Source: a virus. From it: DNA of 38,390 bases. This document shows, in pieces, positions 2,413 to 35,810 of this stretch; the stretch's first letter is position 1; each line of letters begins with the position of its first letter. Both the position numbers and the translations under genes were made by a program. The stretch lies in IMG/VR virus record IMGVR_UViG_3300032287_000322, positions 1 to 38,390 of that record. One strand, written 5' to 3'. The notes beneath the pieces are model-generated. The model was not told the DNA's origin. It searched no databases and was given only the letters and a program-made list of their open reading frames with translations.

Positions 2413-2590
2413 GTGGCTGTTCCCGTTTAGCGGTATGGAGATTGGGGATAGCTTTTTTATCCCTACCCTCCGATTTGCGGAGATGATCTACGCCCTAGAC
2501 TGCGGGGCTAAGCGCGCTGGGATGCTGGTCAAGTCCTTTGTGACCCATAAGGATGGGCACTTAGGAGTTCGCGCTTGGCGTGTCCGCTAG
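2396..2590 (+). CDS. Small conserved phage protein of replication region
   Basis: A 64-residue frame starts at ATG 2396, inside the end of the primase-helicase gene (17-base overlap). A TTG at 2393 is directly upstream, and a second ATG at 2435 gives a product starting MEIGDSFFIP. The core GDSFFIPTLRFAEM followed by a C-terminal GVRAWRV resembles short proteins seen near phage replication genes; I cannot assign a function. No convincing Shine-Dalgarno precedes either ATG, so coupling to the upstream gene is likely. The stop TAG (2588-2590) shares the CTAG with the stop of the giant minus-strand gene. Same-strand position after the helicase supports a replication or regulatory role only by association. 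Confidence 0.65.
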   Translation: MILEPEWLFPFSGMEIGDSFFIPTLRFAEMIYALDCGAKRAGMLVKSFVTHKDGHLGVRAWRVR

Positions 2591-5500
2591 GGTTCAATAT
2601 CAAGGGCTTTAAACATCTCAATCATCTGCCGCTTAATGATGTTTTGCCGGAAGATATTAGCCCGTAATAGTTCTTGTCTGTCTTTTTGTGGGATTGGCAA
2701 AAGACGAATTTTGTTAGCCTGTTCTCTAACATCATTTAAGCTACCTAGGTGGGCATAGTAGACCCCTATAGCTGCCGGTGCTGTAGGATGCTTAGTGATA
2801 AATTCAACGTACGCTGTAGGCGACGTTTTCTTTAGTGTTTTAAGCCGCTCATCATAATTTTTTAGCTTGTCCTCAACTGCTGTGAAGTCGCGTGCATCTA
2901 CGTTGGACTTAGCACCAAAGAACGAGCCAAGCAACGGTAAGTCAGTTTTAGGGTTGAAAGCCTTTTCGCCTGCGCCAATGTCCTTCCAGCTGTACACAAG
3001 TTCACCCACACGCGCAAAACCATCTATGTAACTATTAGCAAGGAAGTACGCTGTATTGGGAGGGATGTTTAAACCCCCGCCGGTCTCGTTGTACACCCAT
3101 GCTGAAAAGTCTTTCCATACTTCGGGAATCCTATCCCCACCAGTGAAGGCATCGCCAAATTTCCGTTGTGATGCGCTGTTGATAGTCTGTCCAATGCCGT
3201 TCACGTTCCATAGGTATTCAAAGTAGGGCCGCATAACGGACGGTAACATGGAGTCAGCAAGCCAAAGGCCGGGTTTTTCTGTGATGGGTATTTTGGATAC
3301 AGGTATTGGCAAGAACGAGTCAGCCAAAGCACCAAGCACAATGTTGCCTAGGCCATCTTTGACAGAAGTATTCCCATGCACCATACCTGCTAACTGCGCT
3401 CCCATGGATGCAAACGAGCCAAGTCCAAAGCCCCAAGGTATTTGGAACACAACGTCTTTGCCCATGCCCATAGCTTCAGACACCCCATTGGGGATGTGGA
3501 ACCGAGCAAACTTAGTCCACTGCTGCATGTTGTCGTATTTAGTGGAGTTGCGCTCCCACTCATCATCAGGGGCCATCATTGCAGACATCCACCATAGAGC
3601 ATAGCCTGCGCCAATTAATGTGCCAGTCATTATTTGAGAATTGGCGCGAAGTTTTTTAAACTCCTTCAAGTATTTTTCTTTTGCCACTGGGTCATCAGCT
3701 ATGTTGGCAGGCATATTATTTTTAGCCCACGTTTCAAAAGTGAATGCAGGGGCTACAGTCTCAATAGCACGCACTGCACCAGTAGCAGACGGCTTAATGA
3801 ACATAAACCACGAACCCAAATACTGCGCCCACTCACCGGATTTTTCAAAGTTAGCTAAGTTTTTTGTCTTTGCCGCAGCTTCTACAGCCGCCGCTTGTTC
3901 TGCTGGAGACATTGGACTGCCCGGATTTTTAACGTCCGACATTTTGGCTTTGTTCTCTGCATAGGCTTTTTCTTTGTAGAGCATATACGCAGCCGTACGG
4001 CTGGTAAGTTCAAACATACCGTTCCAGCTATCAAGCAATGCTTCAATGCTGTCTTTGGTCTGCAAAATGCGGTTCCGCTTGACGTTCTTCAGCTTCTCAA
4101 GATTAGCCTTGAGTGAAAAACTTTCTATGAAGATGGTCTTGCCCCCAATTTGAATCATCTCCAACATGGCTTGCACAAACGGGTCTTTAGCCGCCATATC
4201 TGCTAGCCGTTTTTGGCTCGCAGGATCGCCCTTCTCATGGTACATCGCTACTTCAAGAGCCTTGCCAAGACCGTTTTTGCTCACTTGGTACGCAATGTCT
4301 TTAATGTATTTAGCAGATGCTAATGGGCCAAGTTCACCCCCACCAATATTCCAAGCGTTGGTCAACGCATCAACGATAAAGTTTTTTGGAGCAAAGTTGA
4401 GGTTGTATCTAGTGTGCGTTGAACCAATCCATGCCGTAATGTTGTTAGCCAGTTGCAGCACTATGTTGCTGTCTTTGAATGAATAACGCAGCGCTTGCAG
4501 CATCTTGGGGTCTGTCACTTTCAAGATGTCGATAGAGCCATCTTGGTTGTAGTGAAATATGTATTGACCGCCTTTGAACTCTTGCAAGTTGGCTACACCA
4601 CGGTCTTCAAATTTGATGTTCCTATGGACGTTACCGCGCAAAATGCCTGTACCGTTGGGGTTGTACTTGGGGTCTGCGGAGAGAGCGTTCTTGATTGACT
4701 GTGTGTAGTTACGCACACCAGCGCGCCGTGCGCTACGGAAGGCATCGTTCAATACTTGCAGCACAGGGTTGTCGGCAATACTGAAACGGCCCGCAGCTTC
4801 GTACTCAATCTCTTGTAGGTCTTTCCCTTTACCCAGTGAGTTGGGGTCGAGCGAGTGGTCGATCTCAGAGTCTTTTGCTTTGCCTTTAAACGGCATGTAG
4901 TGCTGGTAGTTGTATATCCCTACAAGGTTATCAACAGGGGTAGACCAGTAGTTGCCGATTTTGTTCAAGTCAGCAGTAGCTTTGTTTAGCTTCTGCATCT
5001 CAGCAAATACTTTCATAGCCGCTGCTCTACGCTCAGGGGACACTATGGCGTCATCATTAAACTGAGTCTCGCGTAGCTTAACTTCATCGTTTGTTATACC
5101 CAGTGCGTTGTACATGGAGCTATACATGTCAATCCGTATATCCACTGTAGGCAGGGGTTTGCCCGGATTATTTTTTATCCACGCATCACGCGCTGCCTTC
5201 ATGTGCGCTGCAGAATAACGAGGACTATCACCATATGCATCAGCATGGTTCTTAGCCAAGTACTCTAGCTCTGTACGTAATGCGGCCCGTTGAGCCTCTG
5301 TCAATTTAAATTGATGGATGATGCCCGGCTTACCAGTACGCATGTCCCCAAGAATATCAATGCGGCGATCTGCAGCGCTAATAAACTTACCGTTATGCAT
5401 TAAATTTTGTATCTTGCTAAGCGGCACAGACACGACGTACTTCATCAAGCGACGCTCAGGCTCATGCAGCATCTCGCCAAACAAGTGCAAATCCACAAGC

Positions 5501-8500
5501 GCCTCATCGTACCCTTTGCCAGCTATCTTGACGTACTCATTGACTGCCTTTTTGTAGCTTTCAAGAGGGCTTCGTAAGTAGTGGTCAAGAAAGTTGCGCA
5601 TCTCTCCCATAGAAAGATCAAGGTGCTCCGTCACGTTGTTAAACGATTTGGTCATATCACGGACAATTTTTAAGCCCATGTCTTGCCGGTTGAAATAGCT
5701 TCTAGCTTCGTACGTCCGGTCTTGCACCAAACGCGCCATGTTGCGCCATCCATCCTGCGTAAGTAAAGACTTGAATACCCCAGTGGTTTGACCCACATCG
5801 GGGAGCCCATGCCTTGTCATGGCTTCTCTTAGCTTACTGTTATTAAAACCGCCGCCACGAAGCTCTTGCGCTGTGCGCGGCGTAGGCGCGGCTTTAGCCG
5901 ACAAGTCTCCTTCCTCAAGCAAGATAGCTTTAGTCTGCGGAGCCATGACATCTTCAAAAGCAGCGGCTAGCTCCATCAAGAAATTTTGATGGACGTACTT
6001 ACCTTGCTCAGTTTCACGCTTTTTTGAGCGCACAAAATCAGCTAACGATATTTGTTTATTTAAATATCTATAGTCACTAACCGCTGCTTCTTCTTCAGAA
6101 ATTGACCCAGTTTCTACTTCTTTTTTTAATTCTTTTTGTCTGGCTTTGTTAATTCTTGTTTTAACTTGCCGAACTCCAACAACAATAAGTTCAGCAATAG
6201 ATAGTTTAAGCGCCGTCCACGCAGACATAGGCGCTTTTGATATGTTACTTATATCTGTGGCTCCGGTCCCGTCAACTTCATTAAACAATAAAAAAGTTAA
6301 ACGGCTAGTTGCCGGTAAATCAATATCGGTTAATTCAATTTGAAACTCACTATCGGTTATTGCATAAGCAAGAAATTCAAAAACGCTTTCATATGCATTA
6401 GGGTGTTTTATCTTAAACCGTACGCCTTCTTCATCAACATGGTTACTAGTAACCGCCATGATTTTGAATATTTGTTCAGCCGCTGCCCGTTGCGAGGAGG
6501 TCAACGACTCAGGGTTGTTTAGGTACTTGTAAAGCACCTGCACGGTAACCGCATGGACAGCTTCGTGCAAAAGAATAGTAGGTGACGCAGACCTAATGGA
6601 AATTTTGCCAATGTGTACATTGTCTCCAGATACATGGCTAGGGTCGTACTGCCCAAGGTCGTTGTTAGATAGCTTTCTTGTAAGTACAAGCAATGGAGGA
6701 GACTTCATCTCCTTAACCATAGAAGCTACTGCGTTAGCAATAATTTTGTTGAACGCGCTTACGGACTTCATTTTGCCAATATGGACCAGCGCCTCATGCA
6801 GCTTGCCATCAGCTATTAGCTCTTCCAGTTTTTTGTAGTCGTTAAGGTTCTCTGACCTAACTTCATTAGCGCCACTTCCAAACCGGGGCTTAGTAACCTC
6901 TCCCGTAAATATATCGACTTCGGGTACGTACCCTTTATTTAAGCGTTCTTTTAGCTCTGCTGACTCACGCTGAACCCGCTCTTGAGCGGTCTCAAACTTT
7001 TTGCCTTCTTTTGAAAAACGCTCTTCATTGCCCTGTCTAATTTGGGCTTCGTCTGCTGCAATCTCATTAGCTGCTTCTTTGTTTAAGTACTCAGCCAAGT
7101 TGGTAAACGCTCGGTCTATTTGCAATCCAGCAAAGACGGTCTCGCCTTCTTCGTTATTTAGGCCCTTGATAAAAGCTTCTTTAGCTTTTTCGGTAAGGTC
7201 GCGCCATGCGGGGAACGTCTGTTTGAACTCTCTACCCATGCTAGTAAGTGTTTCGTTGTACACATTAGCAACACGTTTTTCTTCAATAGACAGGCCTTTG
7301 TACGAACGGTCTGTTAGAGCTTGCACCACGGCCTGAGCGGCTCTGCGGTGTTCAAACATAGATACGTCTCTTGGTGGCGGCGCACCCCGCTCTGCTTCAA
7401 GACTAGCTTTTGTTGGCTGTTCTTCTTCGCGGAGGTAGTCTCCGTATCTAATTTCTCTAAAGTAGATGTCTTTAAGCGGCCCCATCTCTTTGCTTGACCA
7501 AGCAGGGATGAACAGTAGTGGCTCAGGGTTAAATGACCTGACTAATTCATTAGCTTTTTCTTCTTCGGCAATAGCTTTGCTTACTACATTTGCTAGTTCT
7601 GTTAACTTAGCCTTATCGCCTTTTAATCTTTTTAACGCTCTAGTAGTGGCGTAATCTGTAGGCTCAACGTCTTCGGTAATGCCAACAGATTTTTTATACT
7701 CCGCTTCTGCATTCAACGCCGTATTAGTTTTGTCAGTAGCATCTTTCAACGCCTTAATTGCCGCTAGGCGATTTTCGTTGTGCTCTTTAGCCTTGGTATT
7801 GTGGTCTGTCCTAACTGTTTCAAACGCAGCAATGTCTTCTTTAGAGGTTTTAAATTTATGGGCTTTTTTCTTGTCTACTGCTTCAAACTCAGCCCTACGT
7901 TTTCTCTCTACTGCTCGGGCTTCTTTGGCTCCGCGCTCAATAGCGTACTCATAATTTTCTGCTGGGGTTAGGTCAGGGTCATACTTGTACGACCTGCTTA
8001 TCATGGAACGCTTTAGGTTCTCTGCTTGAGTTAGATTAGGGTCGTATTTGTACGCTTCGCTTGGTTGCTCATCAGCTTTAGCCTGCTGCTGTTGCTCAGG
8101 CTTTGCAGGCGCTTGTTGACGCACAAAGGGGCCCGGCGCGGTCTCAAGTTTTCTAGTTTTAAATCCGGGCCAAAACCAAAATTTGCTAGGCGCGCCGGTA
8201 TCAGGGTGAAACCGCACACCTCCAGCTAGAGTTACGTTCTCACTAGCCAGTTTTGCAAGGCGTTCTTTTGCCTCTGCTGCTCGGGCCCTAGCTGCTGCCG
8301 AAGAATCTGCTGCGCTAAGTACTCCACCTTTGGGGCCAGTAGCTCCCGTCAGTGGCATGTTGTGCGTACGCTCTAGCGAGTTGATTCGTTTAAGCAACGC
8401 CATATTGTCAGGCTTCTTAATAAGCTTGGCAAGCGCGTCTTTATAGGTCTCGCTGTCTATCTCATCCATGGGGATAGCAACAAGTGCGGGCTTCTCGGGC

Positions 8501-10395
8501 TCAACCGTCTTAGTTGGTTCAGCGGCTTGTGTCTGGGGCTGTGCTAAATCAAGGGGGCGTTTTCCTTCAGTAGGAAATACAAATTCAGTAGAACCAGCAT
8601 GTCCTTGAGCAGCATGTTGGCTTATTGTTTCAGCAGGTAAAGTGACGCTTGTAACCGTTCCAAATTTTGCAGCCTTTGTAGGGTCAGTTGTCCACCATTG
8701 CCCGCCCGCTACGTTTTCTTTGTTTTCCCCCCGATACAACGTCACTTGTTGCCCGGGCTGCATCGTACTTAATGTTACAGGGGCTGCGGGTGCTTCTTGT
8801 TTTTGCGTTTCTGTTTGCTGGGTTTGAGCGGCTTGAGTGCCATCGGTGGTTCCTTGTATGTCGGGGATATCTGTGAGTTGTTCACCGCCAGTGGCAAAGT
8901 ACTGGCGCAGTGCTTGGACAGCCAACACCCTAGTGCTTTCACCTTTGCTCTTATCAACTTTAGGCGTGGGAAGGCCAAGCTGATTCATCTTTGCTATCAG
9001 GCTTTTTACTTCATCCTTGCTAATCATCTCCGTTTCTTTGCCTACGGGGATGTTATCTATGCGAGCTTTAAGCTCTTGTGCAAGGGGCGATGGGGGAGTA
9101 GGAGGGATGACTGAACCGGGCGGCGCAGGCACAGTGCTGTTAAGCATGTCCAACTCTTGCTGAGTAGGGGGCCTATCAGAGCCCCTAATGTCCATACTGG
9201 CAGTTGTAAATTTGTCTTGCTTGAGTTTTTCTTGCTCAGCATCGTTCAATTTAAGGGCGTTCTGTAGAGCAATTTCGTTCTTAGCGGTATAGGCTTCCCG
9301 CCCGCCAGTAATCGTACCCATCCCAGCGCCTGCTAAGCCTTCCAAAGTGCCTTGTCCAACAACGCCACGCATTGTGGGAACAGCAAAACCTTGTCGTTGT
9401 AGTGCAAGGTTTGCAGCTAGTTGTTCTTGCCCACCTTGGCCTCCTTCACCTAAGAAATCTTTGCCTGCAGTGAATACTGCATTTTTAACTACACCCCGTT
9501 TAGCGGCTTCTTTAGCAGCGTTTTCAGTTACTATTTTGACTGCTTCTTTTTGGGCTGCGGTAGTGGCAATTCCTTTGGCGAGTTGCCGGGCTAGGATGGC
9601 TTCTCCGCCAGTTGATGCACCAAAAGCGCCAAGCCCCGCACCCAGCAAAATTTGATCTAGGTTTTTACCATCGTATTTTTGGGCTTCAATAGCAGCTTTT
9701 TCAATTTGCTCTGGTGTCATCTTAGTCTGTTGACTAAGTACCTCTTTGGTAGCGTCGTAGATAGAGCTCTTAACTGTTCCTGCGCCCATCAATGCGCCAG
9801 TACCAAGCGTTAGCCCAGCTGCTGCAATTGGAGCGCCCCCAGTAAAAATAGTAGCTACCCCTGCAAGAATTGCAGGAGCGGCTGTACCAAGGGCATTAGC
9901 AAGTAAGTCTACAGGTGCAACGCTGGCGGCTTTAACAGCAGCACCCACGTTATCCCAGATGCCCTTGTCCTCCACCTCTTTCATTATGCGGGCTATCTCT
10001 TTGCTGTCCCGCTTAGACTGGGCGCTATACAGCGCCGCAACGTAGTCCTCTACGCTTCTGAGATTTTTGGATACAGCATTATCCGCACCAAAAGCATCGG
10101 CAATCATACGTACGCCAGTAACCGCACCAGAACCTACCTTTAACGGTACGTCAGCAACCTCGCGTAGGAGAGGAAACGCCTCTGTATCGTCTCTAGCTAC
10201 AGGGATTACAGGGGATTTTGCAGGTGCTTTTGCAGGGACAATTGTTTCCCAGCCTTGTTCATCTTTAGCGGATGCGGTTGCAGGCGCGGGAGCGGGGACA
10301 ATTGTTTCCCACCCCTGTGCATCCCTAGCGGGCGCAGGGCGAGTAGCAGGGCGCGGAGCCGGGACGATTGTTTCCCACTCAGACTCTTTTGCCAT
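2587..10395 (-). CDS. Giant polyvalent internal virion protein (2602 aa)
   Basis: The largest gene in the window. It opens with three WETIVPA repeats (residues 7-56) and a Gly/Ala-rich hydrophobic stretch (about 158-206) that could insert in membranes. An ADP-ribosyltransferase-like patch follows (YRGE with R555, then QWWTTDP at 566-572). A charged coiled-coil zone lies at about 770-930, with two YKYDPxLTxAEN repeats near its start. A zinc-peptidase motif HEAVH (1277-1281) is followed about 60 residues later by ESVFEFLAYA, whose E1336 or E1340 could be a third metal ligand. The C-terminal third has NLNFAPKNFIVDALTN (about 1996-2011), like the LPD38 domain of large polyvalent proteins, and a membrane-type segment near 2255-2275. 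Size, membrane segments and position as the last structural gene fit a DNA-ejection protein such as T7 gp16, delivering enzymes into the host. Catalytic activity is inferred, not shown. It starts 2 bases after the upstream gene stops. Confidence 0.82.
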   Translation of the reverse strand: MAKESEWETIVPAPRPATRPAPARDAQGWETIVPAPAPATASAKDEQGWETIVPAKAPAKSPVIPVARDDTEAFPLLREVADVPLKVGSGAVTGVRMIADAFGADNAVSKNLRSVEDYVAALYSAQSKRDSKEIARIMKEVEDKGIWDNVGAAVKAASVAPVDLLANALGTAAPAILAGVATIFTGGAPIAAAGLTLGTGALMGAGTVKSSIYDATKEVLSQQTKMTPEQIEKAAIEAQKYDGKNLDQILLGAGLGAFGASTGGEAILARQLAKGIATTAAQKEAVKIVTENAAKEAAKRGVVKNAVFTAGKDFLGEGGQGGQEQLAANLALQRQGFAVPTMRGVVGQGTLEGLAGAGMGTITGGREAYTAKNEIALQNALKLNDAEQEKLKQDKFTTASMDIRGSDRPPTQQELDMLNSTVPAPPGSVIPPTPPSPLAQELKARIDNIPVGKETEMISKDEVKSLIAKMNQLGLPTPKVDKSKGESTRVLAVQALRQYFATGGEQLTDIPDIQGTTDGTQAAQTQQTETQKQEAPAAPVTLSTMQPGQQVTLYRGENKENVAGGQWWTTDPTKAAKFGTVTSVTLPAETISQHAAQGHAGSTEFVFPTEGKRPLDLAQPQTQAAEPTKTVEPEKPALVAIPMDEIDSETYKDALAKLIKKPDNMALLKRINSLERTHNMPLTGATGPKGGVLSAADSSAAARARAAEAKERLAKLASENVTLAGGVRFHPDTGAPSKFWFWPGFKTRKLETAPGPFVRQQAPAKPEQQQQAKADEQPSEAYKYDPNLTQAENLKRSMISRSYKYDPDLTPAENYEYAIERGAKEARAVERKRRAEFEAVDKKKAHKFKTSKEDIAAFETVRTDHNTKAKEHNENRLAAIKALKDATDKTNTALNAEAEYKKSVGITEDVEPTDYATTRALKRLKGDKAKLTELANVVSKAIAEEEKANELVRSFNPEPLLFIPAWSSKEMGPLKDIYFREIRYGDYLREEEQPTKASLEAERGAPPPRDVSMFEHRRAAQAVVQALTDRSYKGLSIEEKRVANVYNETLTSMGREFKQTFPAWRDLTEKAKEAFIKGLNNEEGETVFAGLQIDRAFTNLAEYLNKEAANEIAADEAQIRQGNEERFSKEGKKFETAQERVQRESAELKERLNKGYVPEVDIFTGEVTKPRFGSGANEVRSENLNDYKKLEELIADGKLHEALVHIGKMKSVSAFNKIIANAVASMVKEMKSPPLLVLTRKLSNNDLGQYDPSHVSGDNVHIGKISIRSASPTILLHEAVHAVTVQVLYKYLNNPESLTSSQRAAAEQIFKIMAVTSNHVDEEGVRFKIKHPNAYESVFEFLAYAITDSEFQIELTDIDLPATSRLTFLLFNEVDGTGATDISNISKAPMSAWTALKLSIAELIVVGVRQVKTRINKARQKELKKEVETGSISEEEAAVSDYRYLNKQISLADFVRSKKRETEQGKYVHQNFLMELAAAFEDVMAPQTKAILLEEGDLSAKAAPTPRTAQELRGGGFNNSKLREAMTRHGLPDVGQTTGVFKSLLTQDGWRNMARLVQDRTYEARSYFNRQDMGLKIVRDMTKSFNNVTEHLDLSMGEMRNFLDHYLRSPLESYKKAVNEYVKIAGKGYDEALVDLHLFGEMLHEPERRLMKYVVSVPLSKIQNLMHNGKFISAADRRIDILGDMRTGKPGIIHQFKLTEAQRAALRTELEYLAKNHADAYGDSPRYSAAHMKAARDAWIKNNPGKPLPTVDIRIDMYSSMYNALGITNDEVKLRETQFNDDAIVSPERRAAAMKVFAEMQKLNKATADLNKIGNYWSTPVDNLVGIYNYQHYMPFKGKAKDSEIDHSLDPNSLGKGKDLQEIEYEAAGRFSIADNPVLQVLNDAFRSARRAGVRNYTQSIKNALSADPKYNPNGTGILRGNVHRNIKFEDRGVANLQEFKGGQYIFHYNQDGSIDILKVTDPKMLQALRYSFKDSNIVLQLANNITAWIGSTHTRYNLNFAPKNFIVDALTNAWNIGGGELGPLASAKYIKDIAYQVSKNGLGKALEVAMYHEKGDPASQKRLADMAAKDPFVQAMLEMIQIGGKTIFIESFSLKANLEKLKNVKRNRILQTKDSIEALLDSWNGMFELTSRTAAYMLYKEKAYAENKAKMSDVKNPGSPMSPAEQAAAVEAAAKTKNLANFEKSGEWAQYLGSWFMFIKPSATGAVRAIETVAPAFTFETWAKNNMPANIADDPVAKEKYLKEFKKLRANSQIMTGTLIGAGYALWWMSAMMAPDDEWERNSTKYDNMQQWTKFARFHIPNGVSEAMGMGKDVVFQIPWGFGLGSFASMGAQLAGMVHGNTSVKDGLGNIVLGALADSFLPIPVSKIPITEKPGLWLADSMLPSVMRPYFEYLWNVNGIGQTINSASQRKFGDAFTGGDRIPEVWKDFSAWVYNETGGGLNIPPNTAYFLANSYIDGFARVGELVYSWKDIGAGEKAFNPKTDLPLLGSFFGAKSNVDARDFTAVEDKLKNYDERLKTLKKTSPTAYVEFITKHPTAPAAIGVYYAHLGSLNDVREQANKIRLLPIPQKDRQELLRANIFRQNIIKRQMIEMFKALDIEP
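10235..10377 (-). repeat. Three direct repeats encoding WETIVPA
   Basis: Near-identical 17-base blocks (gggacaattgtttccca type) begin at 10235, 10295 and 10361, giving units of 20-22 codons. Each encodes WETIVPA followed by a Pro/Ala-rich spacer. They form the N-terminal 56 residues of the giant virion protein. Copies 1 and 2 are identical over the 17 bases; copy 3 differs at one base. Confidence 0.85.
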
Positions 10396-18998: not shown

Positions 18999-19337
18999 TT
19001 ACACGTTGCGCTCAAAGTGTGGGCAGTCTACCAAGGACTTGAAGTTGCCGCCCCAACGGTTCTTAGGATGTAGGCTCTCCCAGTACGCGCCCAACGGAGC
19101 AAGAATAGCCTTGTCCCAGATGATTTTGCCATCACGGAAGAAGTTGAGGTCGGCAGCGCAGCGCTTCAGGTGGATGGAGTTCATGGTCTTAGACCGCCCC
19201 GTCTTGAAGTAGATGGCCTGCTGTTCTGGGGTACGGGCAAGTTCCCCGCCTGTGACCATGAAGCCTTGGTCGGTGGCGTACTGCACCAGCTTGCAGAAGT
19301 CCAGCAGGAACGCTGCTTGTTCAGTGCTTAGGCTCAT
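18999..19337 (-). CDS. Endolysin, M15-family peptidase
   Basis: This 112-residue single-domain enzyme belongs to the VanY/M15 group, which cleaves peptidoglycan cross-bridge peptides. The zinc-site residues are visible: SIHLKRCAADL gives H56 and D63, and VDCPHFE gives catalytic D104 and ligand H107. RTPEQQAIYFKTGRSKT is the usual substrate-side loop of this family. There is no signal peptide, so it depends on the holin encoded just upstream, with which it shares an ATGA overlap. The size matches compact phage L-alanyl-D-glutamate or D-Ala-D-Ala endopeptidases. The bond specificity cannot be told from sequence alone. Confidence 0.9.
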   Translation of the reverse strand: MSLSTEQAAFLLDFCKLVQYATDQGFMVTGGELARTPEQQAIYFKTGRSKTMNSIHLKRCAADLNFFRDGKIIWDKAILAPLGAYWESLHPKNRWGGNFKSLVDCPHFERNV

Positions 19338-19846
19338 TTGTTGCTCCTCATTTCAGCCAGCTTCTCGACAGTACGTCCGCCGAAGTACGCGCCCATAATC
19401 AGCATGCCCCAGTTACCCAGCAGGGTCACGTAGGACTCGTTTGCGTTGTAGCCAAAGGCTGACATCATGGCAAACAGGAAGTAGCCCAAGAAGATGGCAA
19501 TCAAGCTCATGGGCCGGATGTTCTTGGACAACCAAGAGTCGGAGGACATATCTGCCTGCCAGCGGTCTGTGATGTTGTCGGCATCGGCTTGTGCAGCCTT
19601 GGCAAGCAGTTCCAACTCAGCCATCTCCAGCTTGGCTTTCTCAATGCCAAGTTCAATCAGGCGCTCTTCATGCTCATACTGAAGCTGCCGTAGCTTGGCA
19701 ACGTCTTCGGGGGTAGGGTTGTCGGGAATTTTCACGCCAAGCGTGTTCTCAACCACTTCCTTACCCTTGGCTTGGATAGCCGAGGACAGCAGACCTAGCC
19801 CGTTTTCAGCCAGTGTGCCTAGCAATGCACCGATAATTGGAATCAT
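19334..19846 (-). CDS. Holin, GTA-type 3TM family
   Basis: This 170-residue protein fits the holin family with three hydrophobic segments found in gene transfer agents and many phages. An N-terminal hydrophobic segment (residues 1-24) is followed by a long charged helix (about 45-90) and then SWLSKNIRPMSL, a hallmark block, leading into membrane segments at about 113-132 and 139-156. It would form pores in the inner membrane to release the M15 endolysin encoded directly downstream. The ATG overlaps the stop of the preceding membrane protein gene by 4 bases. Confidence 0.85.
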   Translation of the reverse strand: MIPIIGALLGTLAENGLGLLSSAIQAKGKEVVENTLGVKIPDNPTPEDVAKLRQLQYEHEERLIELGIEKAKLEMAELELLAKAAQADADNITDRWQADMSSDSWLSKNIRPMSLIAIFLGYFLFAMMSAFGYNANESYVTLLGNWGMLIMGAYFGGRTVEKLAEMRSNK

Positions 19847-20190
19847 TTATCTTCCTTTTTAAACGTGGTTTTCATCCCGGCCCTGTCTTCCAAGATGGCA
19901 ATGTGCAGACGGTTGACTTGAATATCATCCCTGTTCTTTTGGATTTCTTTTTCCAAGTCTTGGCGTAACTTTTCCCTCGCCAACTCAGCACCTGTGTTAC
20001 TTGCTTGCTTGTTGTCAGAGGTCACCACCAAGCTGATTTTGCTGTTAAGAATAGTGACTTCATGGGACAGGTTAGATAGCGCCGACATGAGATAAACCAC
20101 GCACGAAAACAATAGCGGCAACAAAGCAAATGTGATTTTTTCAACCAAGGCGCTTTTGGTTTCCATTGCTTGAATTTTCTCTTCACTCAT
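19843..20190 (-). CDS. Lysis-region membrane/coiled-coil protein (possible inner spanin)
   Basis: This 115-residue protein has one N-terminal membrane segment (about 18-37, FALLPLLFSCVVYLMSAL) and then a hydrophilic coiled-coil tail (about 60-105). This is the topology of an inner-membrane spanin or of small phage membrane proteins of unknown role. No lipobox partner (outer spanin) was found nested in it. It lies 1 base after the stop of the frameshifted gene and overlaps the holin start, so it is part of the lysis operon. The spanin call is inference from topology and position. Confidence 0.7.
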   Translation of the reverse strand: MSEEKIQAMETKSALVEKITFALLPLLFSCVVYLMSALSNLSHEVTILNSKISLVVTSDNKQASNTGAELAREKLRQDLEKEIQKNRDDIQVNRLHIAILEDRAGMKTTFKKEDK

Positions 20191-20191
20191 A

Positions 20192-20682
20192 TCAAAAGCC
20201 CCTGTTCGTTACAACGTGAAACGCAACACTTATAAGCGGGACGATGATAGCGGAAGCACCGGTAATCCAGAGCGTGTTCATAATGATTGCCACCTTCATC
20301 TCTTTCTCCTTTTGCTTGCGCTCCGCTTCTTCTCGCTCCAGCGTGTTGCGTTCCTTTATCAGCCTAGTCCGTTCTGACATCATCTCTTCCCAGACCGGGG
20401 CATTCCCGCTGTAGAAGAGTATGTCTTTCAGTTCCTTCTCGTGTTCCCGCAATGCCTTGGATGCCAGTGCAATTTGGAGAGCTTCAGAACTGATTTGTGC
20501 ATTCGTCTTTCCAATACTAGCAATCCGCGCCTTACTGCTTGCTAGGTGAACCGTGTCCGCTGCTTGATAAAAACTGCTGAATTCTTTATATAAGCTGTGG
20601 ATATCCTTACCAAGAGCGACTGCTTTTTTATGCCAGCTACCGCGCCTTGAGCAAGGGCAAACGCGGTAAACGGGTCAATCAC
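20192..20682 (-). CDS. Coiled-coil/membrane protein split by a -1 frameshift
   Basis: Read with one -1 shift, this gives a 163-residue protein. The first 20 residues come from frame 0 (GTG at 20682, MIDPFTAFALAQ...GIKK), followed by AVALGKDIHSLYKEF in the -1 frame, continuing through HEKELKDILFYSG to a C-terminal membrane segment (about 132-157). The -1 frame is open back to 20675 but has no ATG at its head, whereas frame 0 supplies a sensible start, overlapping the upstream gene stop by 8 bases. Without shifting, frame 0 ends at TAG 20544-20542 after 46 residues. The shift point is A_AAA_AAG (20629-20623). A TTG at 20452 could give only an 86-residue C-terminal fragment. The alternatives are programmed frameshifting, a real homopolymer mutation, or a sequencing error. 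The protein itself looks like a conserved phage family of unknown function in the lysis cassette. Confidence 0.7.
20623..20629 (-). promoter_or_regulatory. Slippery heptamer A_AAA_AAG
   Basis: On the minus strand, frame 0 reads ATA AAA AAG, which is the heptamer A_AAA_AAG in the register used for -1 ribosomal slippage. The -1 frame continues GCA GTC GCT and stays open for more than 140 codons. No obvious stimulatory hairpin or upstream Shine-Dalgarno-like element was seen, so a homopolymer indel is an equally simple explanation. Confidence 0.5.
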
Positions 20683-21414: not shown

Positions 21415-24400
21415 TTACACTCTGTAAGTTAATATGCCAAATACTGCTGTATTATTATTAAAATTTGTGTTATCTAAAGCACTGCTACCGTTTGTACCAA
21501 TCTGGCGCAAGTTGCCGCTAACTCCACTCTCCATTGACCAGTACATACCAAACCCAGCACTAAATCCAGCAGCGTTATCATGGATAAGATAGTTCTGAGT
21601 GTATGTTCCTCCAACTGCGAAAGGTAGACCGCCAAGAACAGCGCTTCCTGTGCTGGAACCTTTACTAGACAAATTTATTCTAAATTGCACAGTAACGGTG
21701 TTTCCAATTTTTGTATAAAATCCTTGCTGAGAAGAATATGTTATTCCAGTTGACCCGCCACCAAAAGTTATTGCTGGTGTCCAAGTCCCTTCCTCATAAT
21801 CATCCAGCGTGTTGGCATTGGCTGAAGCTGATTGCGTAGCGGGGAATGAAATGCCTGTACCAGCAGATAATGTTCCACCTTCTAAAGTAAAAGTGTTGCC
21901 TGTTTTGGCAGAGGCTACGATATTACCGCCACCGTCCGACAGCACAACAAAGTTGCTGCCAGTAGCAGAGATGGGAGCAGCAGAGCCTGAGTAGCCGCCA
22001 ATGATGGTGTTACTAGCGCCAGTAGTTATTGCGTTACCAGAACCATAACCAATGACCGTGTTATTGCTACCTGTCGTAGTAGCTAGTAGCGCCGTTGTTC
22101 CAACAGCCACGTTGTTGCCGCCGGTAGTGTGAGCCTGCAAGGCTTGGTAGCCAACAGCCACGCTGTTTGCGCCGGTAGTGTTGCCTGCAAGTGCAGACAC
22201 CCCCATTGCCGTATTTGTGCCCCCAGTTGTATTGGCCCCCAGCGAACCAGACCCAACCGCCGTGTTGTTTGCGGCGGTGGTGTTTGCCCCCAACGCACTA
22301 TTACCAACGGCGGTGTTGTTAGTTCCGGTAGTATTCTTATTTAGCGTGTAATACCCCACCGCTGTAATAGCATCAGCCGTTGTATTGTTTTGCAGCGATT
22401 CGCTGCCCACAGCCACATTGAACCCCCCTGTAGTGTTGGAGTAAAGGGCATACCACCCCAAGGCTGTATTTGAAGTGCCTGTGGTTGTGCTGAATGCGGC
22501 GGAAGACCCAACAGCAACGGTGCGTATGGAGGATGTTACGTTGTATGCCGCCTGATACCCCACCGCCGTGTTAATGCTGCCCGTAGTGTGAGAGTAAAGG
22601 GCTTGGTAACCCAACGCCGTGCTGTTATTGCCAGTGGTATTCGTGTACAGCGACTGATACCCCACAGCGGTGTTGTTGCTTGCGGTGGTGTTGGCATCAA
22701 GAGCTTGTTGCCCAATGGCTATATTATTGCTGCCGGTTGTGTTTTGCCGCAAGGCATAAAACCCCATAGCGACGTTTGTACCGCCAGTAGTGTTGAGTGA
22801 AAGTGCTTGCTGACCAACAGCAGTATTGGTTGCACCAGTAGTATTGGCGTTAAGAGCACTCCCGCCCACTGCAATGTTATATGAGCCTGATGTTACATAT
22901 CTAAGTGCGCCGTCACCAACCCCCACATTACCACTTGCGGTAGTTGCCGAGGCTCCCGAAGAGGCAGTGTTTCTACCAACATAAGTATTGCTATCGCCAG
23001 TTGTTTGGTTAGCGCCAGCGTTAGTACCGACGAAGGTGCTGTATCCGCCAGTCGCTGTATATCCTGCTCTGGCACCAATGGCGACTACATCAGGGTTGCT
23101 GACATTAGAATAAAGAGCTTGATAACCTAATGCAGTAATGCTTGTCGCCGTTGTACCTGAGTAAGCAGCCTGATACCCCACAGCGGTGTTTTGGCTGGCG
23201 GTGGTGTTGGAGTAAAGTGTTTCACGACCAATAGCCACGTTATTACCACCGGTGGTGTTGGCCGAAAGTGTGTTCCATCCCACCGCTACATTATTGGAAC
23301 CGGTGGTGTTTGCGGTCATCACTATATAACCTACCGCGGTATTATCTTGGCCAGTAGTTATTCTTCCTAATGCTGTTGATCCTATTGCAGTATTACCGTT
23401 TCCAGTTGCTGCGGAACCCGAAACACCCATCGCGTCGCGACCAACTGCCAAATTCTCTGAGCCAGTTGTTATTCTGTATCCCGCTCCGTATCCAAATAAC
23501 ACATTATAGTTGCCAGTAGTTATGTTATACCCAGCCTGATATCCAAACGCTTGATTTTGAGTGCCTGTGCTGTTGGTGTACAGTGCTTGATAACCTACAA
23601 CGGTTTGATTAGCTCCAGTAGTATTACTATACCCAGCCTGATACCCCACAGCGGTGTTGTTGCTGGCTGTGGTGTTGGATGCTAATGCGTTACTGCCAAG
23701 TCCAGTATTATTAGAACCAGAAGTGTTGTATGTAAGCGTACCTTGTCCAAATGCAGAATTTGATGCGCCTGTGGATGCGCCACTAATTGCACTTAAAGCA
23801 TAGTCACCAACGGCAGTATTATTTCCACCATTTGCCAAATATCCAGCCCTAGAACCAACAAATACGTTATTGTCAGTTGTATTGGTATATCCAGAAAAAT
23901 AACCAACATATGTATTTCTGCTACCAGTGCTAGAGTAAGCAGCTTGATTTCCTACAGCAGTGTTGTAATTTCCAGTAACATTGTTTAAAAGTGCTTGTGT
24001 TCCAACGGCTACGTTTATCGAACCCGTTGTATTAGATACTAACGCACTAGCACCAACCGCCGTATTGCTTGCCACAGCACCAGCGCCTCGGCCTACGGTG
24101 AGTCCGTAGACAGTCAGGTCAGTACCTGAGTACAGCAAGTTAGCGGAGTCGGTCTCAAGCCCGCCGGTAGTGGAATAGACCACACGGCCCGAGGTCAGGC
24201 CGGTGTTGGTGATGGAGGAGAACGTGCCCGCACCGGAGATGTTGGACACCTTGATAAAGTCGGAGCCGTTCCAAGCGCAGACTGCTGACTCGCCCTTGAT
24301 GATGGTCACCCCGGTGGTGGGGCCAACTCCGCGCAGCACAATGCTCTGAGTGCTGGAGCTTTTGTTGATGACGATGTAGGTCTTAGACTGGGCCGGGGCC

Positions 24401-24642
24401 GTGATGTTGCGGGTTACAGTGCCGCCCGCTGTCCACAGCAGGATGATTTGCCGGGAGGTGTTGGCGGCTCCAGTGGTCGTGGTCAGGGTTACGTCTGCGT
24501 CGGAACTGATTGTGGTCGTGCCCGCAATGGCGGAGTCAAGCAACGAGGTGATGGCATCGTTGACCGTGGTTCCCCAAGTACCCGACAGTTCTCCCGTGAC
24601 TGGAAGGGCCAGACCAAGTAGAGATGTATATGCTGTAGCCAT
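21415..24642 (-). CDS. Tail fibre with about 41 YadA-head-like repeats (1075 aa)
   Basis: The N-terminal 130 residues (MATAYTSLLGLALPVTGELSGTWG...) are a typical virion-anchoring start of phage fibre proteins. From about residue 190 to 890 the protein is a run of about 41 units of mostly 17 residues with consensus NTAVGYQALYSNTTGxN, the pattern of left-handed beta-roll heads of trimeric autotransporters such as YadA. The C-terminal part reads NTLDDYEEGTWTP, then GFYTKIGNTVTVQFRI and GSAVLGGLPF, a common receptor-end module of phage fibres. It would form a trimeric fibre that binds the host surface. ATG follows GAGGTAACAC. Repeat number is from reading by eye. Confidence 0.88.
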   Translation of the reverse strand: MATAYTSLLGLALPVTGELSGTWGTTVNDAITSLLDSAIAGTTTISSDADVTLTTTTGAANTSRQIILLWTAGGTVTRNITAPAQSKTYIVINKSSSTQSIVLRGVGPTTGVTIIKGESAVCAWNGSDFIKVSNISGAGTFSSITNTGLTSGRVVYSTTGGLETDSANLLYSGTDLTVYGLTVGRGAGAVASNTAVGASALVSNTTGSINVAVGTQALLNNVTGNYNTAVGNQAAYSSTGSRNTYVGYFSGYTNTTDNNVFVGSRAGYLANGGNNTAVGDYALSAISGASTGASNSAFGQGTLTYNTSGSNNTGLGSNALASNTTASNNTAVGYQAGYSNTTGANQTVVGYQALYTNSTGTQNQAFGYQAGYNITTGNYNVLFGYGAGYRITTGSENLAVGRDAMGVSGSAATGNGNTAIGSTALGRITTGQDNTAVGYIVMTANTTGSNNVAVGWNTLSANTTGGNNVAIGRETLYSNTTASQNTAVGYQAAYSGTTATSITALGYQALYSNVSNPDVVAIGARAGYTATGGYSTFVGTNAGANQTTGDSNTYVGRNTASSGASATTASGNVGVGDGALRYVTSGSYNIAVGGSALNANTTGATNTAVGQQALSLNTTGGTNVAMGFYALRQNTTGSNNIAIGQQALDANTTASNNTAVGYQSLYTNTTGNNSTALGYQALYSHTTGSINTAVGYQAAYNVTSSIRTVAVGSSAAFSTTTGTSNTALGWYALYSNTTGGFNVAVGSESLQNNTTADAITAVGYYTLNKNTTGTNNTAVGNSALGANTTAANNTAVGSGSLGANTTGGTNTAMGVSALAGNTTGANSVAVGYQALQAHTTGGNNVAVGTTALLATTTGSNNTVIGYGSGNAITTGASNTIIGGYSGSAAPISATGSNFVVLSDGGGNIVASAKTGNTFTLEGGTLSAGTGISFPATQSASANANTLDDYEEGTWTPAITFGGGSTGITYSSQQGFYTKIGNTVTVQFRINLSSKGSSTGSAVLGGLPFAVGGTYTQNYLIHDNAAGFSAGFGMYWSMESGVSGNLRQIGTNGSSALDNTNFNNNTAVFGILTYRV
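21985..24080. repeat. Tandem 51-bp-type coding repeats in tail fibre
   Basis: About 41 imperfect units, mostly 51 bases, encode N-x-A-V-G-type repeats. Several neighbouring units share long near-identical stretches (for example cataccccacagcggtgttg-like blocks recur), so length change by recombination or slippage is plausible. Confidence 0.85.
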
Positions 24643-35405: not shown

Positions 35406-35810
35406 CTATTTGCGTTTGATTCCCCGTGGGTCTTCTACAACGCCTTCGACAGAATCGTCGTTGATGATGCGGAATTCACGGTCGTGGATGAGAAGCCGAG
35501 TGCCAGCGTGGGGCCGGACCAAGACAAAATCACCTTTTTTGCACCATGGCCCGGTAGGGAACCGAGTTGGGTCTTTGTAGCAGTCGGGACCCAGATCAAC
35601 GACAAACAGAACCGTGGTGAGCAACTCTTCATTGCGCATCATCTCTGTTGACTTGATAAGACTCGACCCTTCGATAGTTTCCTCAGCTTCCGGTACGGCG
35701 CACAGAATCCGATAGCCCGAAGGCATGGGTAACTGTTTTGCTTTCTCTTCTGCTGATGTGTTCAGTACAGCGGACAAGTCCACCGCCCTGATGTCATAAG
35801 CTTTATTCAT
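35406..35810 (-). CDS. Phage GroES-like co-chaperonin
   Basis: This 134-residue protein has GroES/Cpn10-type architecture: PSGYRILCAVPEAEET (30-45) as first strand, a possible mobile-loop region around residues 46-62 (EGSSLIKSTEMM), TTVLFVVDLGPDCYKD, WCKKGDFVLVRPHAGTRL and REFRIINDDSVEGVV as last strands. The N-terminal 25 residues and an RFPTGPWC insertion are additions to bacterial GroES. It would cap host GroEL to help fold capsid proteins, as T4 gp31 does. It is encoded between portal and scaffold; its ATG overlaps the preceding stop by 8 bases. Confidence 0.78.
   Translation of the reverse strand: MNKAYDIRAVDLSAVLNTSAEEKAKQLPMPSGYRILCAVPEAEETIEGSSLIKSTEMMRNEELLTTVLFVVDLGPDCYKDPTRFPTGPWCKKGDFVLVRPHAGTRLLIHDREFRIINDDSVEGVVEDPRGIKRK

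Follow-up and report, generated by a model that had tools for sequence, protein, structure and literature searches.

Frameshift genes that are well known in tailed phages mostly encode tail chaperones or capsid and tail extensions. In the prfB gene for RF2, a +1 slip at an in-frame stop is autoregulated by RF2, and the ancestral protein is made in full only through this early slip, the 0-frame product being a short peptide. The tail assembly chaperone G/GT of lambda and other tailed phages is a late gene in which a -1 slip late in an already complete protein leads into a C-terminal extension (PMC5009743). In dnaX of E. coli the short product arises far into a long gene, at an A_AAA_AAG heptamer followed by a 3′ hairpin (PMC5009743) and preceded, about 10 nt before the slip site, by a Shine-Dalgarno-like stimulator. 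The gene studied here, in a 38,390-nt stretch of DNA from a freshwater phage (the window), shares the heptamer, its register and the hairpin with dnaX, and shares with G/GT its standing as a phage late gene with a -1 slip to a C-terminal extension. Unlike in either system, the slip comes 20 codons into the gene and, unlike in dnaX, slipping yields the ancestral protein at full length; this recalls prfB, except that the shift is -1 at a tandem Lys site without a stop at the slip. No consistent Shine-Dalgarno-like element was found upstream of the slip (AGGG in 32 and AAGG in 29 of 87 relatives, otherwise rare). Profile searches gave no homology to tail chaperones, the only confident match being to phrog_32327, and the neighbours are a holin and an endolysin rather than a tape measure context. 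We found no earlier report of frameshifting in the phrog_32327 family in the open-access literature, and the locus is best read as genuine -1 programmed frameshifting in a gene family new to it. In E. coli, few sites slip more readily than A_AAA_AAG (PMC5009743).

The complete gene occupies 20192..20682 on the minus strand, which the earlier note had not specified; the coordinates and the junction peptide given there are correct. Frame 0 opens at GTG 20682, and this segment of 20 codons, the GTG included (20623..20682, VIDPFTAFALAQGAVAGIKK) reads VIDPFTAFALAQGAVAGI-K-K as it meets A_AAA_AAG at 20629..20623. Without a shift, the reading continues as QSLLVRISTAYIKNSAVFIKQRTRFT to a TAG at 20544-20542, giving an unshifted ORF of 46 aa (20542..20682). 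A -1 slip on AAA-AAG instead enters a frame that had been described as open for more than 140 codons and that runs for 143, from 20623 to a TGA at 20194-20192 (segment with stop, 20192..20623), so that the fused product has 163 aa and contains the expected junction peptide GIKKAVALGK. A second in-register A_AAA_AAG, at codon 1456 of a 2602-aa gene (2587-10395), is probably incidental.

For comparison, we gathered 87 distinct full-length split-type IMG/VR sequences from about 50 metagenome data sets by pooling all hits with a pattern search for the N-terminal motif; L097, whose -1 ORF is long but spurious, was left out. Among the closest 80 IMG/VR loci, where the -1 part is 87-98% identical, 78 share heptamer, register and split; of the other two, L070 is in frame and one is truncated. 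All 87 split sequences carry ATA-AAA-AAG, an X_XXY_YYZ heptamer in the 0-frame register, although ATA makes up only 17% of Ile codons in the source phage, and we take the heptamer to be conserved beyond chance. Synonymous sites in this set are near saturation (pairwise dS 1.0-1.4), and third-position changes mapped on the tree number zero in the three slip codons versus 3-26 in each of the other 17 frame-0 codons. Both frames are under strong purifying selection: omega is 0.05 in frame 0 (18 codons ahead of the slip), 0.041 over codons 1-50 of the -1 frame and 0.048 over the remainder (codons 51-143), against values above 1 when the same DNA is read in the wrong frame. The in-frame homologues span both parts.

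A spacer of 5 nt (20618..20622) separates the heptamer from a predicted stimulatory hairpin, within the range of about 5-9 nt downstream, with its 5′ arm at 20617-20603 and its 3′ arm, which holds one bulged base, at 20574-20559. A first look with RNAalifold and simple shuffles gave no significant structure; the stem was picked from a single inspected fold, and we then examined it with shuffles, slid partners, the sister clade and co-changes mapped on the tree. Standard pairs fill 94% of its cells over 55 distinct rows, compared with 36-57% when the partners are slid by 1-3 nt and 62% at the same places in the in-frame sister clade, and none of 300 synonymous-column shuffles reached 94%. Ala codons 2 and 20 of the -1 frame, 54 nt apart, co-change at their third bases on six branches where 0.33 would be expected, always between C-G and U-A; the sites between them are mostly unlinked to them, while sites 52 and 64 are partly linked too. 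Energy-based tests are weaker and, taken alone, marginal, with 13%, 7.7% and 5.7% of shuffles equally good. The stem is absent in 5 of the 55 rows, two of which (L061 and L095) carry another hairpin at similar spacing. We consider the hairpin likely rather than proven. As a separate observation, at Ala codons 20 and 21 of the -1 frame (20563-20558 in the window) the third bases alternate in the split clade as GCG-GCA or GCA-GCG, rarely otherwise, to a degree that exceeds what the hairpin pair explains.

The frame-0 TAG is maintained too, a signal that, like the hairpin, the earlier note had not listed. At codon 26 the -1 frame has CTA, TTA, GTA or ATA in all 87 sequences, so that Leu, Val and Ile interchange and yet the TAG survives, whereas 15% of other Leu, Val and Ile codons end in TA. 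Third-position changes per codon average 6.5 in the overlap versus 13.6 late in the gene. The retained 0-frame stop is a further sign of selection in the split clade. In 25 of the 87 sequences an earlier TAG lies one codon past the slip and would give a 21-aa peptide; the same relatives retain the second TAG at codon 26, where it is redundant for the unshifted product. The earlier note suggested that the phage could set a ratio of short to long products; since the short product varies in length (21 or 46 aa, with its end 1 or 26 codons past the slip), the split may equally well throttle the long protein as supply two working products. A working short peptide is possible, though its tail is not conserved.

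Profile searches returned 127 homologues that read as one frame and 34 short ones (32 split, two truncated at contig ends); L268 and L274, counted among the 127 and labelled in-frame in the tree, proved split-type on inspection. In-frame members occur in Puniceispirillum phage HMO-2011, Roseobacter CRP phages, Limnohabitans phage DC31 and large freshwater phages, in similar surroundings close to lysis and tail genes, and all of those examined have one frame, unlike the split clade. At about 60% identity, the nearest sister sequences have codons such as ATT-AAA-AAA-GCA and ATA-AAA-AAA-GCA here, and relative to the latter the split sequences have one A fewer. In a quick maximum-likelihood tree all split sequences group together with support 95; L070 falls inside this group, and the in-frame sequences are outgroups. 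Because distant and sister relatives are single-frame, several of them with seven A residues, the comparison indicates that the split is derived from an in-frame ancestor by loss of one A, once. L070 has an in-frame junction, ATC-AAA-AAG-GCC (L070:2940-3060), and a disturbed 5′ end with an extra base after MIDPF and probably a TTG start; these features and its nested position make this one contig look like a reversion to a single frame, and the split is therefore not indispensable. Genome contigs gave a single match, a distant homologue in one frame from a Rhodoferax MAG, which is not enough to identify a host. Some in-frame loci have features of their own: in L227 (2984-3200) and L235 a second gene, beginning MDPLTLFALANGAVSAVKAG and with the same N-terminal motif, directly follows the family member and is apparently a tandem paralogue, and in HMO-2011 (L083:1917-3456) the family gene directly follows a methanesulfonate monooxygenase alpha-subunit gene.

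The seven-A relatives bear on whether the split could be a sequencing or assembly error hiding seven A residues and one continuous frame, an outcome that the earlier note proposed to check by the count of A residues in relatives. Seven-A relatives with a continuous frame do exist, since several in-frame sister homologues read ATA-AAA-AAA-GCA, but they belong to a clade separate on the tree from the window's, which is uniformly six-A with an invariant ATA-AAA-AAG. As the same six-A split recurs in nearly all of the nearest relatives, from about 50 metagenome data sets, we rejected an error, whose probability we put close to nil; the frameshift arrangement is, by this comparison, almost certainly real and selected. 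The -1 segment might also be expressed independently from an internal start, with the upstream peptide as a separate small gene, and ATG, GTG or TTG codons do lie in frame further down. In nearly all sequences, though, the first ATG or GTG of the -1 frame stands at codon 52, 76 or 80, an early TTG (codon 3) is found in five sequences only, and the window has a TTG at 20452; the conserved first third of the frame is thus hardly reachable except via the slip. The strongest selection falls on precisely the 50 or more codons that precede the first start, and in the in-frame homologues the two parts are one 163-aa protein. Independent initiation was rejected on the start-codon positions and the omega of the early -1 codons, and we consider it extremely improbable.

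Two further readings accept the arrangement and concern how, or why, it works. Transcriptional slippage, by which one A added in some transcripts would yield the long protein without a ribosomal slip, draws on the fact that the site is an A homopolymer in which one extra A restores the frame. Such slippage usually needs about nine A/T, however, and the run here is six A in all 87 sequences, never longer in the clade. The Lys-Lys register with AAG last and the hairpin 5 nt 3′ of it fit the ribosome instead, and a polymerase cannot be stimulated by RNA that it has not yet transcribed; we rejected this mechanism on the six-A run and hold it to be very unlikely. A near-neutral one-base deletion that was fixed and is tolerated because A_AAA_AAG slips, leaving a frameshift without regulatory role, would account for a derived state that equals the in-frame relatives minus one A, for the variable length of the short product and for the reverted L070. 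Against this, any one-base insertion would repair the gene, yet one in-frame lineage is seen among about a hundred, and mere tolerance does not predict that the 0-frame stop and the covarying hairpin are kept. We judge it unlikely, while giving it appreciably more weight than slippage by the polymerase. The gene is very probably expressed by -1 programmed ribosomal frameshifting, a reading that sequence comparison supports through the slip site and its register, selection in both frames, the 0-frame stop, hairpin covariation and in-frame ancestry; the ribosome as the agent of slipping, its efficiency and its purpose are what we infer.

The fused product matches phrog_32327 (E 6.1e-11, residues 1-146 on profile positions 1-139 of 152), as do 44 of 44 in-frame homologues. 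No Pfam family scored above the cut-off; matches to EssA and TRI5 fell below it and were rejected. Hydropathy peaks at 2.07 at residue 140 of the long product, marking a hydrophobic C-terminus with a predicted membrane segment at about residues 133-158 (20210..20287, minus strand), and the model built for an in-frame homologue, with a mean pLDDT of 73, has four helices, the last one long. No PDB entry matched this model at E ≤ 0.001 in a structure search, and a BFVD search matched only unnamed phage proteins. The long product is thus predicted to be a helical, C-terminally membrane-anchored protein of an uncharacterised family.

The placement in a lysis region, as the earlier note had it, holds good. 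The gene sits between tail-fibre genes and, all on the minus strand, a 115-aa protein with an N-terminal hydrophobic (TM) segment and no confident family (19843..20190), a holin (19334..19846; phrog_3427, E 2.4e-13, with GTA_holin_3TM below cut-off) and an endolysin of the M15 peptidase type (18999..19337; phrog_465, E 3.2e-16, with PF13539 above cut-off). The -1-frame stop shares one base with the start codon (ATG) of the next gene, mostly a 170-aa holin, in 73 of 87 relatives, so that only slipped ribosomes would reach this re-start point; AGGGG precedes the next gene in 63 of 87, and it can therefore also start on its own. That the frameshift is a lysis-timing device, with the slip frequency setting how much membrane protein is made and, in part, how much holin, is a tentative idea that we think doubtful. 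The family gene is often immediately preceded by a small gene whose product is hydrophobic near its N-terminus and carries a VC-x-W or VCRIP motif (in L239, L244, L210 and L226, and in the split-clade L005 and L036); this small gene is possibly a partner. Elsewhere in the window are a 1075-aa tail fibre-like protein with many NTAVGYQAL-type repeats (21415-24642) and, near the capsid and portal genes, a GroES-like co-chaperonin gene (35406-35810; phrog_3188, E 1.1e-7).

Under programmed ribosomal frameshifting, ribosomes would initiate at GTG 20682 and read 20 codons, and at AUA-AAA-AAG the two Lys tRNAs would shift back one base onto A-AAA-AAA, aided by the hairpin. The shifted fraction would make the 163-aa membrane-anchored helical protein, and the remainder would terminate at the conserved UAG to give the 46-aa peptide (21 aa in some relatives). 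Most likely, the purpose would be to hold a membrane protein of the late lysis region to a fraction of initiations. Automatic gene calling would overlook the full-length protein in split-clade phages. The gene adds a third setting for phage frameshifts, a membrane protein adjoining holin and endolysin, and the comparative evidence for it is unusually strong. Together, the derived split clade, its in-frame sisters and the one lineage that reverted form a testable natural series for the birth and retention of a frameshift; if the reading is true, they would record such a birth, in which one A was lost from an in-frame AAA-AAA and a hairpin stabilised the arrangement later.
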